From Sphingobacteriaceae bacterium (lineage in GTDB: Bacteria > Bacteroidota > Bacteroidia > Sphingobacteriales > Sphingobacteriaceae), in assembly GCA_947479815.1 (NCBI GenBank), contig CANKAT010000006.1:1-64000 (forward strand): DNA of 64,000 bases. The letters are read 5' to 3'. Within the stretch, counting starts at the first letter, position 1. Each line of letters opens with the position of its first letter. Made by a program: the position numbers and the translations under genes. The notes beneath the pieces were generated by a model. It made no database searches and was not told the origin of the DNA. It was given only the letters and a program-made list of their open reading frames with translations. Positions 2,346 to 34,175 of this stretch are shown here, piece after piece.

Positions 2346-3575
2346 TTGAACACCTCCTATTATATCGCCAAAAGGTATCTGTTTTCGAAGAAATCGGTCA
2401 ATGCGATCAATTTTATTTCAGGGATCTCCATGCTTGGCGTTTTTGTAGGAAGTGCTGCTCTCATCATTATTCTTTCTGTATTTAATGGTTTTGAAAACAT
2501 TGTACTCTCTATGTACAATACGTTTAGCCCTGAACTCCGAATCGAATCCCTGAAAGGAAAAACCTTTGATCCTGGGAATACTCATTTCCTGACTTTGAAA
2601 AATGATAAACGTATTATTAACTATACTGAAGTATTACAAGAAAAGGCTTTGGTACGTTATGGTGAAAGTCAGTCTATTGCTCTAGTAAAGGGTGTTAGCG
2701 AGGGTTTTATGAAAAATAAAAGCGGTCTGGATTCAGTAATTTCTAGTGGAAGTTTTACCTTATGGTCTAGGGGTCAGGATATGGCGGTGATAGGTTATGC
2801 CTTACAAAATTTTTTATCCATTAACCTGAATAATGAATTTCAAAGTCTTGATGTTTATTCACCCAGAAAAGGAGCTTTAAACCCATTGAATCCTGCCGAT
2901 GAGTTCAATGTGCGTTCCATTTATCCATCCGGTGTTTTTGCGGTTCAGCAAGAATTTGATAATACAATGATTGTTCCCATACGTTTTGCGCGCGAATTGC
3001 TTGGTGAGAATAAACTCGTATCCTATATCGAGATAAATGCTGCTAAGAATGTTGTTATTGATGATCTTCAGAAGGAGATTGAAAAATCACTTGGCAAGGA
3101 ATTCCTGGTCAAGAACCGCAGCCAGCAAAACGAATTATTGTATAAAATTCTGAATTCCGAAAAGTGGGCCATCTTCCTGATCCTTACATTTGTGTTGATC
3201 ATCGCAATCTTTAATATTATTGGATCCTTAACCATGTTGGTTATCGATAAGCGCAAAGATATTGCCATTTTAAGCAGCTTGGGAGCAGATAAATCCTTGA
3301 TTCGGGGTATTTTCTTCATTGAAGGAATGATGATCTCCATGTTTGGATGCATTCTTGGAATGTTTGCCGGATTAATCTTTATCCTGCTTCAGCAACAATT
3401 TGGGTTTATTGCCATGTCGGGTACAAATCTGATGGTCGATACCTATCCGGTTGGGATCAAGCTAACTGATTTTGTTCTTGTATTTGGAACCGTACTGCTG
3501 GTTTCGGTAATCGCTTCTGCTATCTCATCTACACTGAGTGTGAAGAATTCAATGAATTTGAGGGAGGATTTGTAG
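2346..3575 (+). CDS. ABC transporter permease, LolC/LolE-FtsX type
   Basis: A 409-residue inner-membrane permease with an N-terminal transmembrane helix (about 25-48), a large periplasmic domain (about 50-265), and three C-terminal helices of the FtsX fold (about 275-295, 320-350, 375-395). This architecture matches the lipoprotein-releasing LolC/E family, which extracts lipoproteins for outer-membrane sorting. Translation appears to start at TTG 2346, since the conserved N-terminus (NTSYYIAKRYLFS) has no upstream ATG in frame. No ATPase (LolD) gene is adjacent. The last 48 bp of this gene recur at 4845-4892, beyond the repeat block. Confidence 0.87.
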   Translation: MNTSYYIAKRYLFSKKSVNAINFISGISMLGVFVGSAALIIILSVFNGFENIVLSMYNTFSPELRIESLKGKTFDPGNTHFLTLKNDKRIINYTEVLQEKALVRYGESQSIALVKGVSEGFMKNKSGLDSVISSGSFTLWSRGQDMAVIGYALQNFLSINLNNEFQSLDVYSPRKGALNPLNPADEFNVRSIYPSGVFAVQQEFDNTMIVPIRFARELLGENKLVSYIEINAAKNVVIDDLQKEIEKSLGKEFLVKNRSQQNELLYKILNSEKWAIFLILTFVLIIAIFNIIGSLTMLVIDKRKDIAILSSLGADKSLIRGIFFIEGMMISMFGCILGMFAGLIFILLQQQFGFIAMSGTNLMVDTYPVGIKLTDFVLVFGTVLLVSVIASAISSTLSVKNSMNLREDL

Positions 3576-3581
3576 GTTATA
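3534..3581 (+). repeat. Permease 3'-end repeat, copy 1 (within the gene)
   Basis: This 48-bp segment covers the permease's last codons, its stop codon and a few bases after it. It matches 4845-4892 at 46 of 48 positions. The two differences still give an open reading with the same ending (LREDL then stop). Confidence 0.85.
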
Positions 3582-4076
3582 AAGGTCTATCTGGGGCAGG
3601 CATTCTGACCGGAGTGAAGGAACTTTGTTTTATGAAGTATAGTTTTCCGCTCATAGCTGCACAATGCGGTTAATACTATTTTTATTCTCCTCCACGCTTG
3701 CTACAAAGGAGTCCTACGGACACAGACCTTTAATAACCTCTCTTCCGCATTGTCCCGTCCCGATAGCTATCGGGAGCAGTGTTATAAATGGTAGGCAACT
3801 AAATCCAGGCACAGGAAAACTTATTTCAATCTTAAACAAATCGTCCATTCACTGAACCTCCGTTCACCTCTCTTCCGCATTGACTGGTGCGGCAATTACA
3901 ACCCTAGCCCTCGCAGAACCTTTCATAGCAGCAGGCGCAGCGGTAGCGTTTATTCGCTGTTTTTTTATTGTTTTTTAAAGGTGCTCATGGTCTCGTCGTA
4001 CCGCCTCGGCATGGTTATTTTTTGCTACAGAAAAAGAACTAAGCCCCCGCGGCCATGAGCGGAATGAAATGATAAA

Positions 4077-4097
4077 ATGCTTGGTAACACCAAGCAT
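4077..4097. repeat. Perfect hairpin in repeat copy A
   Basis: ATGCTTGGT (4077-4085) and ACCAAGCAT (4089-4097) form a 9-bp stem around a 3-nt loop. The same hairpin, with different length and loop, occurs at 4657-4683 and 33779-33799. Confidence 0.75.
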
Positions 4098-4656
4098 AAG
4101 AAACATAAATTTATTTTACAATAATTTATATGTCAATATTTTGTGTCTTTTGTCTTGAAACAAAAGGCACCAAAAGTTCAAGAAAGAACGATGCTTCCAC
4201 CGCTCCAAAAGAGTCCTACGGACACAGGGCAAAACACCTGGCCCGCCGTTCTTTCATCCCACCGCGCGGGAATTGTAGTTCATTTAATATTAATTCTTTT
4301 TAGTTAAAATCTGACAGGCTACAAAGGTGAACGTTAGTGGGGGGTTATGAACGTTCATCCACAAACGGCCGCGTACAGGGCTATAATTTTTGTTTTGAAA
4401 TGAAATTAGAGCTAACGCCCTGTCCAATGCCGCGCAAGTCGGTTAATACAATTTTTATTCTCCGACACGCTAACTCAGACCTTTAATAACCTCTCTTCCG
4501 CATTGTCCCGATAGCTATCGGGAGTAAGTGCGGCAATTACTGTCCTAGCCTTCGTAGAACCTTTCATAGCAGCAGGCGCAGCGGTAGCATTTTGGTTCTT
4601 TTTTGCTACAGAAAAAGAACTAGGCCCCCGCGGCTATGAGCGGAATGAAATTATAA

Positions 4657-4683
4657 AATGCTTGGTGGGTACCACCAAGCATT
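4657..4683. repeat. Perfect hairpin in repeat copy B
   Basis: A 12-bp perfect stem (4657-4668 with 4672-4683) around GTA. It extends the GCTTGGT stem of copy A by further GG/CC pairs, so the two copies differ while pairing is kept. Confidence 0.75.
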
Positions 4684-4844
4684 GGGTAAATTAGTTATTT
4701 GATAAAAATTTGTTTTTTGCCTTTGGTCCTAGGGACTCCTTTGGAGCAAAGAGTATTTGTGTCTTTTGTCTTGAAACAAAAGCCACCAATGCCGAATCGC
4801 CCTTCAGCCCCGAGACCATGAAGACCTATAAAAAAAATAAAATC

Positions 4845-4892
4845 CTGAGTGTGATGAATTCAATCAATTTGAGGGAGGATTTGTAGGTTATA
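4845..4892 (+). repeat. Permease 3'-end repeat, copy 2 (outside the gene)
   Basis: A detached copy of the permease's last 13 codons plus stop, reading LSVMNSINLREDL against LSVKNSMNLREDL in the gene. It sits just downstream of the repeat block, so the block is bracketed by direct repeats. It could be a target duplication, the remnant of a tandem permease paralogue, or a recombination scar. Confidence 0.8.
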
Positions 4893-4948: not shown

Positions 4949-5221
4949 ATGAAGAAACTCATCGTAAACCTATTATTACTAATTTTTGTTGTTTCCTTGA
5001 ATTCTTGTGCTACCATTATTGGAGGAAAAGTATCTGAATATCAAAGAATTAAGCCTTTAGCCGGAGAGCCTTCACGCAAGATTCGTGGGGTTGCATTAGT
5101 AGCAGATATACTATTATTCTGGCCCGGAGCAATTGTGGATTTTGCAACTGGAGCCATTTACCAGCCAGATAAGGGAACCGAAGCCAAAAAGGCTGATACC
5201 AATAAGCCTAAAATGTTGTAG
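4949..5221 (+). CDS. Small lipoprotein, function unknown
   Basis: A 90-residue protein with a lipoprotein signal peptide (lipobox LNSC, Cys about residue 19), followed by ATIIGGK, a pattern seen in small envelope lipoproteins. A hydrophobic stretch at about residues 50-70 could be a membrane segment. The ATG at 4949 gives a standard KK-rich signal start. It stands alone between the repeat block and a convergent epimerase gene. No catalytic motif seen. Confidence 0.7.
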   Translation: MKKLIVNLLLLIFVVSLNSCATIIGGKVSEYQRIKPLAGEPSRKIRGVALVADILLFWPGAIVDFATGAIYQPDKGTEAKKADTNKPKML

Positions 5222-5338: not shown

Positions 5339-6304
5339 TTAAAAATATCTGTTTGGTATGAGGTAATTTTTAACATAATCCTCAATCCCTGCTTCCAAAC
5401 TATAAAAATCAAGGCTATAACCGATTGATCTTAATTTTTCCATGCTTGCTTCAGTAAAATACTGATACTTTTCCCGGATATCTTCCGGTGTAGGAACAAA
5501 TGAAACAGTGACTGTTGCATCCATTGCATGAAATGTATTCTTTGCCAGGTCAAGGAAGGTTCTTGCCTTACCGGTTCCCAAATTATAAATTCCAGAATCT
5601 TTACGGTGCTGCATCATAAAATACAAGACGCTTACCAAGTCTTTGATATACACAAAATCACGCATCTGTTCGCCATCCTTAAAATCAGGATTATGTGATT
5701 GAAATAATTTCATGGAACCTGTTTGGCGGATCTGATTGAAGGTATGAAATATCACGGAGGCCATTCTTCCCTTATGATATTCATTCGGACCATACACATT
5801 GAAAAACTTCAGTCCTGCCCAGAAATATGGTTTTTTTCCCTGCTTTAAAGCCCAGTTATCGAAATCATTTTTCGAGTCGCCGTAAGGATTCAGGGGTTTT
5901 AGCATTGGAATCTTTGATTCATCATCATCATATCCCTGTTCTCCTAATCCGTAGGTAGCTGCTGAAGAAGCGTAAACGAAAGGAAGTCCAAATTCAATGC
6001 AGATATTCCAGATAGTCTTGGTATAATCCAGGTTCAAACGATTGAATAATTCCTTGTCCATTTCTGAAGTATCGGTACGCGCACCAATATGGAATACGAA
6101 CTGTACGTGAAGCTGATTTTCAACTAGCCAATCAGCAAAAACCTCTCGTTCTACTTGTTTGGAATAACGCTTACCCTCGAAATTTTTATTTTTGATCTCA
6201 CTAGAAAAATCATCGACCAGCACCAGATCGTAAAAACCTTCATCGTTTAGTTTTTGAACTAAACAACTTCCAATAAATCCTGCTGCTCCTGTAATAATGA
6301 TCAT
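5339..6304 (-). CDS. rfaD: ADP-L-glycero-D-manno-heptose 6-epimerase
   Basis: A 321-residue NAD(P)-dependent short-chain epimerase that makes the heptose precursor of the lipopolysaccharide core. The nucleotide-binding motif GAAGFIGS is at residues 6-13. A YGDSKNDFD segment gives the Tyr-x-x-x-Lys catalytic pair near residues 141-145, and VYGPNEYHKG is typical of HldD/RfaD. Length is normal for the family. It is 27 nt downstream of mqnD on the same strand, so co-transcription is possible although the pathways differ. Confidence 0.9.
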   Translation of the reverse strand: MIIITGAAGFIGSCLVQKLNDEGFYDLVLVDDFSSEIKNKNFEGKRYSKQVEREVFADWLVENQLHVQFVFHIGARTDTSEMDKELFNRLNLDYTKTIWNICIEFGLPFVYASSAATYGLGEQGYDDDESKIPMLKPLNPYGDSKNDFDNWALKQGKKPYFWAGLKFFNVYGPNEYHKGRMASVIFHTFNQIRQTGSMKLFQSHNPDFKDGEQMRDFVYIKDLVSVLYFMMQHRKDSGIYNLGTGKARTFLDLAKNTFHAMDATVTVSFVPTPEDIREKYQYFTEASMEKLRSIGYSLDFYSLEAGIEDYVKNYLIPNRYF

Positions 6305-6331: not shown

Positions 6332-7291
6332 TTATAAGAATAAGATTTGTTTCGTTTCGGGGATGATTCCTAGTTTGTGTGCTTCGTTAAAGAAAGTTTG
6401 AACGGCCTTCCTTCCCACCTCACCTAAATCAATTGAAAATTTATTGACATAAAGTTCAATGTGTTTGTTGATCACCTCTTTACTCATTTCCTGTGAAAGT
6501 GAGCAGATAAAATCCATTCCAGATTCCGGATGATCAAAAGCATAGTGAACACTTCGTTTAATGATGCGGTTTACTTTTTGTTTTATATTTTCAGGAAGCT
6601 CTCTTTTAACCATAATACCACCTAAGGGAATTGGTCCCTGAGTCAAATCTTCCCAAAATTCGCCTAAATCGATAATCTTTTTCAGACCTTTTTCCTGGTA
6701 AGTGAAGCGATTTTCATGGATGATCACGCCCATATCGATCTGATGATTCAATAAGGCTGATTCAATTTCAAAGAATTTCATCTCGATCTTATTTTTCGCT
6801 TCAGGGAAGGCCAGGCTTAACAGACAATTGGCGGTGGTGTATTTGCCGGGAATGCCAATGCGGAGGTCTGAGGTTGGAGGTCGGAGGTCGGAAGTCTGAG
6901 GTCGGAGGTCGGAGGTCTGAGGTTGGAGGTCTGAGGTCTGAGGTCTGAGGTCGGAGGTCTGAGGTTGGAGGTCTGAGGTGGGAGGTCTGAGGTTTTGCAA
7001 ACCATCATTTGAAATATAGTCTTCATTCTCGCAAATGAGTAATGGCCCAACTCCAAATCCAAGAGCACTTCCTGAATCAAGCAACACATATTTTTCAGTG
7101 AGATAGGCATAGGCATGAAAGCTCAGTTTGGTGATATCGAGCTCAGCCCGGAAGGCTTTTTGATTAAGTGTTTCAACATCATCAAATACCACATCGAAAC
7201 TCAAGCCTTCAGTATCGATTTTTTGATGGATCATGGCATCAAAAATGAAGGTATCGTTAGGGCATGGAGAAAATCCGAGGCTTAGTTTCAT
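6332..7291 (-). CDS. mqnD: 1,4-dihydroxy-6-naphthoate synthase with in-frame heptamer insert
   Basis: MqnD cleaves cyclic dehypoxanthine futalosine to 1,4-dihydroxy-6-naphthoate in the futalosine route to menaquinone. The periplasmic-binding-protein-like fold is recognisable from the start (LGFSPCPNDTFIFDAM), TKLSFHAY, GIPGKYTTAN and IHENRFTY. Family members are about 275 residues; this one is 319. The extra 44 residues (about 101-144) are PQTSDLR-type heptads encoded by 19 tandem 7-bp units, placed just before the conserved GIPGKYTTAN. The start overlaps mqnB's stop by 4 nt. A change of one or two units would shift the frame. Confidence 0.9.
   Translation of the reverse strand: MKLSLGFSPCPNDTFIFDAMIHQKIDTEGLSFDVVFDDVETLNQKAFRAELDITKLSFHAYAYLTEKYVLLDSGSALGFGVGPLLICENEDYISNDGLQNLRPPTSDLQPQTSDLRPQTSDLQPQTSDLRPQTSDLRPPTSDLRIGIPGKYTTANCLLSLAFPEAKNKIEMKFFEIESALLNHQIDMGVIIHENRFTYQEKGLKKIIDLGEFWEDLTQGPIPLGGIMVKRELPENIKQKVNRIIKRSVHYAFDHPESGMDFICSLSQEMSKEVINKHIELYVNKFSIDLGEVGRKAVQTFFNEAHKLGIIPETKQILFL
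6861..6993. repeat. Heptanucleotide tandem array inside mqnD (19 units)
   Basis: Nineteen consecutive 7-bp units on the plus strand, mostly CTGAGGT, CGGAGGT or TGGAGGT. Since 3 units equal 21 bp, the protein shows a 7-residue repeat (P-[PQ]-T-S-D-L-[QR]). Only multiples of three units keep the frame. Confidence 0.95.
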
Positions 7292-33559: not shown

Positions 33560-34175
33560 AGATTATTTTGACAACAGCATGTCAGATTTTAACTAAAAAG
33601 AATAAATAAAAAATGAACTACAATATCCGCGCGGTGGGATGAAAGAACTGCGAGCCAGGTGTATGGCCTAGAGGGCTGAAGCTTCGTTCTTTCTTGAACT
33701 TTTGGTGCCTTTTGTTTCAAGACAAAAGACACAAAATATCGATATAAAATTATTTTAGAATAATTTTATGTTTCTTCTGCTTGGTGTTACCCACCAAGCA
33801 TTCATGATTTCATTCCGCTCATAGCCGCGGGGGCCTAGTCCTTTTTCTGTAGGAAAAAAGTACCAAAACCCCACCGCTGCGCCTGCTGCTATGAAAGGTT
33901 CTGCGAGGGCTGGGGTTGTAATTGCCGCACCAGTCAAGGCGTAAGAGAGGTGAACGGAGGTTCAGTGAATGGACGATTTGTTTAAGATTGATATAAGTTT
34001 TCCTGTTCCTGGATTTAGCTAATTCCATTTATAATTTCATTCCGCTCATAGCCGCGGTATTGGACATGGCGTTAGAACTATTAGCATCCCAAAACAAAGT
34101 ATCATAGTCCTGTACGTAGCCGTTTGTGGATGAACGTTCATAACCCCCACTAACGTTCACCTTAGTTGCAGGCTC
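33560..34175. repeat. Dispersed repeat block, copy C (inverted)
   Basis: An inverted counterpart of copies A and B at 3.6-4.8 kb, with the same blocks in reverse order on the opposite strand. They include the foldback at 33700-33735, the GCTTGGTG/CACCAAGC hairpin (33779-33799), the cagcaggcgcagcgg block, and a GTTATGAACGTTCATCC block at 34130. No supported gene, although a short frame at 33755-33937 stays open on the minus strand. Confidence 0.8.

Follow-up and report, generated by a model that had tools for sequence, protein, structure and literature searches.

The window, a 64,000-nucleotide stretch of a draft Sphingobacteriaceae genome (G000), carries an intact gene for a LolC/E-like permease followed by a block in which dispersed non-coding repeats form a mosaic, a small lipoprotein-like gene and, on the opposite strand, the gene for ADP-glyceromanno-heptose 6-epimerase (Table 1). 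The genus is probably Daejeonella, the closest named relatives being Daejeonella and other Sphingobacteriaceae. The permease exceeds the Pfam cut-offs for FtsX and MacB_PCD and scores 209 bits against NCBIfam lolCE, under the cut-off of 362 bits. We found no second closely related permease in 20 same-genus genomes, contig-split pieces aside. The lipoprotein-like gene has a patchy distribution: it lies behind the permease in G000, G009, G017 and G018 and was not found in the other loci read. Further along the window, positions 6834–7015 hold a short-period tandem repeat with spacings of 14 and 21 bp, which encodes repeated RPPTSDLQPQTSDL-like residues within a 319-aa ORF on the minus strand; this ORF has no NCBIfam match, and its neighbour is the gene for futalosine hydrolase.

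Table 1. Features of the permease locus and of the blocks compared with it. Positions are those of the window unless another locus is named.
Feature	Position	Strand	Basis and remarks
Intact LolC/E-like permease gene, with copy 1 at its 3' end	2346..3575	+	ORF; Pfam FtsX, MacB_PCD; one close homologue per same-genus genome
Copy 1 of the duplication, original gene end	3534..3581	+	Pairwise match to 4845-4892
Block between the copies, a mosaic of dispersed non-coding repeats	3582..4844	.	Genome matches; repeat similarity 3601 to 4842
Copy 2 of the duplication, beside the native downstream neighbour	4845..4892	+	46/48 against copy 1; conserved in G003, G004
Small lipoprotein-like gene, downstream of copy 2	4949..5221	+	ORF; homologues directly behind the permease in G017, G018, G009
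ADP-glyceromanno-heptose 6-epimerase gene	5339..6304	-	TIGR02197 above cut-off; adjoins copy 2 directly in G003, G004
Second block of the same repeat family, without flanking duplication (comparison)	33576..34169	-	Repeat match; flank score 9.5
Locus 2, 63-bp duplication	L120 3819-3881 and 4844-4906		Between divergent glycosyltransferase and methyltransferase genes
Locus 3, 93-bp duplication	L117 3983-4075 and 4425-4517		8 differences

The 48 bp at the end of the permease gene recur on the far side of the block (locus 1). As a sequence-only reading had reported, the two copies are identical except at two positions. Copy 2 contains the last permease codons and stop (NLREDL, TAG) followed by GTTATA. 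When positions 2346–4892 of the window were shuffled 20 times, the best 48-base match was 27–32, against 46 of 48 in the real sequence. The flanks of this block reach a match score of 43; the 99th percentile of 800 control flank pairs is 14.5, and three of the 800 score at least 38. Chance is excluded as the source of the match. The earlier reading also placed the block exactly between the copies, which is nearly the case: similarity to the repeats stops 19 bp short of the left copy and 2 bp short of the right one.

The copies are 1263 bp apart, a distance filled almost wholly by the non-coding repeat mosaic. Its longest listed ORF has 63 aa; none reaches 70 aa, and no integrase gene lies between the copies. 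One unit of the block is an imperfect palindrome of ~130 bp (30 aligned copies). Four loci gave no Rfam match for a conserved RNA structure, and covariation was little. In the 3.2-Mb draft genome the repeat family yielded 100 reported matches at ~35 places by hand count, and our searches of open-licence papers returned no recognisable description of it. Blocks are frequently located at contig ends, and the block sequence adjoining the duplications varies among loci and among species, with no common element ends. At one block (L117 4090–4338) an 82-aa ORF runs through a repeat unit. Elsewhere, a G004 block (L138, contig C164) joins flanks that in G000 sit on two contigs, each beside a block (L122 on C51 and L128 on C1), an arrangement which suggests that blocks behave as rearrangement breakpoints.

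The DNA behind the permease end was read in 19 of the 20 same-genus genomes (all but G012; for G019 a second contig was used, and G018 offered just 424 bp). Only G000, G003 and G004 carry their gene end twice, and none of the remaining 16 loci has a further copy downstream of the permease. In G003 the duplication spans 69 bp with one difference, its copies are separated by 334 bp, and the bordering bases diverge immediately on both sides; given such sharp edges, the original duplication looks to have been 67–69 bp long. The G003 segment corresponds to window positions 3515–3583, so that the 48 bp of the window are probably the remainder of a slightly longer duplication. In G004 ~48–50 bp match, 5 of 48 positions differ and ~1.34 kb separates the copies. 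The differences between the copies inside each genome are about the size of those among the three genomes, so the event took place slightly before the three-genome split or the copies have been homogenised.

Which copy belongs to which neighbour can be read from the relatives. In both G003 and G004 copy 2 continues straight into the heptose epimerase gene, whose stop in G003 is one base away from the TAG of copy 2. In three genomes with a single gene end (G013, G014 and G002) the match to the epimerase starts at the first base past the permease stop. The lipoprotein-like gene sits between copy 2 and the epimerase in G000. Copy 1 is the permease's own and copy 2 is that of the native downstream neighbour; this holds for a loss of the lipoprotein-like gene from G003 and G004 as well as for a gain in other genomes. 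Copies so placed have the layout of a target duplication.

We examined the flanks of other blocks for direct repeats. Of 59 block instances prepared, 56 were tested, three being dropped because they lay less than 60 bp from the locus end, and the contig-end loci L131, L135, L140, L002, L020 and L006 were left out; merging orthologues reduced the tested instances to ~43 distinct loci. The sequence-only reading had proposed a search for gene-end duplications beside other repeat copies, and the outcome is divided. A direct repeat across the flanks was not detected at ~40 of the 43 distinct loci, but two blocks besides that at the permease stand out with long flanking duplications of low-copy sequence (loci 2 and 3). 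At locus 2 the duplicated segment is non-coding intergenic DNA, not a gene tail or gene end, and the duplication is common to G003 and G004 as well. The same site in G010, G018, G019 and G017 is a single short intergenic region, single-copy and free of a block. Locus 3 is the weakest case: its segment occurs once in G003, where it is continuous with the left side and another palindromic repeat lies further right, and the surrounding DNA is locally repetitive. The three duplicated segments do not match one another.

Other sites at and around the blocks take several forms. Across the three versions of locus 2 (L120, L134 and L148), both G004 copies share a base absent from the G000 and G003 copies, which hints that the flanking repeats have exchanged sequence. 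A fourth high-scoring duplication (L189, on contig C12 of G010) was set aside, its segment being itself a multi-copy repeat. The block at L142 in G004, with empty sites in G003 and G010, has no flanking duplication. Three candidate empty sites were rejected: G004 carries a smaller block at L112, the two flanks of L126 lie on separate contigs that each end in repeats, and L118 has other, unmatched sequence in G004. At L118 a block at 3756–4322 in G000 faces ~490 bp of unmatched sequence at the same place in G004 (C79 5497–5984), which would fit an independent filling or replacement of the site.

Among the origins that the sequence-only reading had offered, a very long target duplication is favoured over a restored gene end and a lost tandem paralogue, both of which are unlikely. 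Direct copies flank the block at three loci; at loci 1 and 2 three genomes share the arrangement, and the sites of relatives are single-copy. That reading had also named, as evidence to the contrary, repeat copies lacking any flanking duplication together with relatives bearing two tandem permease genes; most other repeat copies do lack a duplication, and no relative has two tandem permeases. A short segment might instead have been duplicated in tandem by slippage, with repeat DNA entering between the copies later. Most blocks have no duplication, so duplication is not necessary to insertion, which agrees with this order of events; it would, however, call for a pair of independent events three times over, once per locus. 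A scan blind to the blocks, covering 66 loci (532,355 bases), turned up 47 pairs of direct repeats within the limits set for size and spacing. Those of low copy number, seven entries in all, fall at loci 1, 2 and 3 and every one straddles a block, with adjacent copies less than 150 bp apart left uncounted and within a sample of loci mostly picked for carrying blocks. We regard prior slippage as unlikely.

Very unlikely, in our judgment, is an integrase-type element that brought the gene end as its attachment site and, in integrating, made the gene whole again; the block would be its remains. The 3' ends of genes are well-known integration sites, and a length of 48–69 bp is usual for an identity segment. 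Against such an element, the 48-bp gene end is absent from every other copy of the repeat family in the G000 genome, copy 1 is continuous with the gene, locus 2 does not lie at a gene end, the block has no ORF of at least 70 aa, and the segments duplicated at the three loci did not match. We find it highly improbable that a whole tandem permease copy once stood here and was replaced by the block in all but its tail. The final codons and the stop do still read intact in copy 2, but each of the 20 genomes has one close permease, the DNA between the copies holds no convincing remnant (the best tblastn hit, in G004, has an E of 0.65, and G000 and G003 give no hit), and the segment duplicated at locus 2 is non-coding. 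An artefact of draft metagenome assembly, suggested by the frequency of blocks at contig ends and by what seemed to be another permease end in G019 (C144) but proved to be a 149-bp contig overlap, is scarcely credible. At loci 1 and 2 the three genomes, each binned on its own, are in agreement, and in no genome are the two copies identical.

Returning to target duplication, we consider it probable that repeat DNA was inserted ancestrally behind the permease stop with a target duplication of variable length, produced by a staggered break or a template switch. Duplications of 63–93 bp would attend some of the insertions of palindromic repeat DNA and not others. In the common ancestor of G000, G003 and G004, repeat DNA would have entered just past the stop codon, leaving on both sides a target of ~67–69 bp that comprised the final ~60 coding bases of the permease together with its stop and GTTATA. 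Copy 1 would have remained with the permease, and so kept it intact; copy 2 would have stayed with the downstream neighbour, probably as a functionless relic that was cut down to 48 bp in G000. The content of the block would have changed afterwards, separately in each species. We infer that insertion and duplication formed a single event, although at the permease locus they could be separate events.

The most likely route would be through nicks or a break staggered by 60–95 bases, or through a template switch in which a replication fork moves onto a hairpin-rich repeat and returns upstream of its departure point; the ~130-bp imperfect palindrome could stall forks or be nicked. Staggered breaks and template switches both yield duplications of variable length, and template switches also yield none, or deletions. 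Direct copies on both sides and a single-copy empty site, two marks of a target-site duplication, are present. A fixed or narrow length is lacking (63, ~68 and 93 bp, and none at L142), as are defined ends common to the copies. This spread of lengths, together with the absence of duplications at most blocks, argues against a fixed-stagger transposase, and the block is not a classical transposon of that kind. Ku (PF02735) was found in none of five genomes (and in one of 14 control genomes, Bacillus subtilis), which makes Ku-dependent end joining unlikely.

Two of the three sites are compact: the stop-to-stop gap at locus 1 in G003 is one base, and the genes at locus 2 share a short upstream region. 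With such close neighbours a duplication spares both gene ends or the upstream sequence, which may be why these examples persist; persistence at locus 3 needs no explanation of this kind. It is possible, albeit doubtful, that the Daejeonella repeats spread without a conventional transposase, by a process that can duplicate 60–95 bp of target, and that in compact spots the duplication keeps the ends or upstream regions of the neighbours intact and so selects the insertions that survive.

Flanking duplications of such length and variability provide a way to study the entry of non-coding repeat mosaics into gene-dense bacterial chromosomes. Were the process general, it would explain how repeats settle among tightly packed genes without breaking them, and the direct repeats could permit exact loss of a block through recombination. 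The finding is a modest yet real clue to the insertion of repeat mosaics.

Known systems resemble the blocks in part. REP/BIME elements likewise combine short palindromic units into mosaics at numerous intergenic sites. They differ from the present case in that the G000 draft genome has no match to the Y1 transposase (PF01797, the RAYT family), found in five of 14 control genomes, and long flanking duplications are not known as a feature of REP/BIME. Template-switch insertions of the MMBIR type would explain mosaic inserts with variable or no flanking duplication; the leading papers that our search turned up concern human, cancer and yeast DNA, and for the present blocks MMBIR is a proposal. 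The YPAL/RU-2 element of Yersinia is a 168-bp palindromic non-coding element with target duplications of 3–26 bp (PMC2229807). The likeness lies in small non-coding palindromic repeats, here an imperfect unit of ~130 bp, joined to target duplications of variable length; the difference lies in duplications of 63–93 bp at a minority of sites, around mosaic inserts without common ends. Insertion sequences of the IS1202 group make target duplications of 16–28 bp, termed unusually long (PMC10132070). They encode a transposase, whereas the block here has neither a transposase nor a fixed duplication length. The duplications of 63–93 bp exceed those of both YPAL/RU-2 and the IS1202 group.
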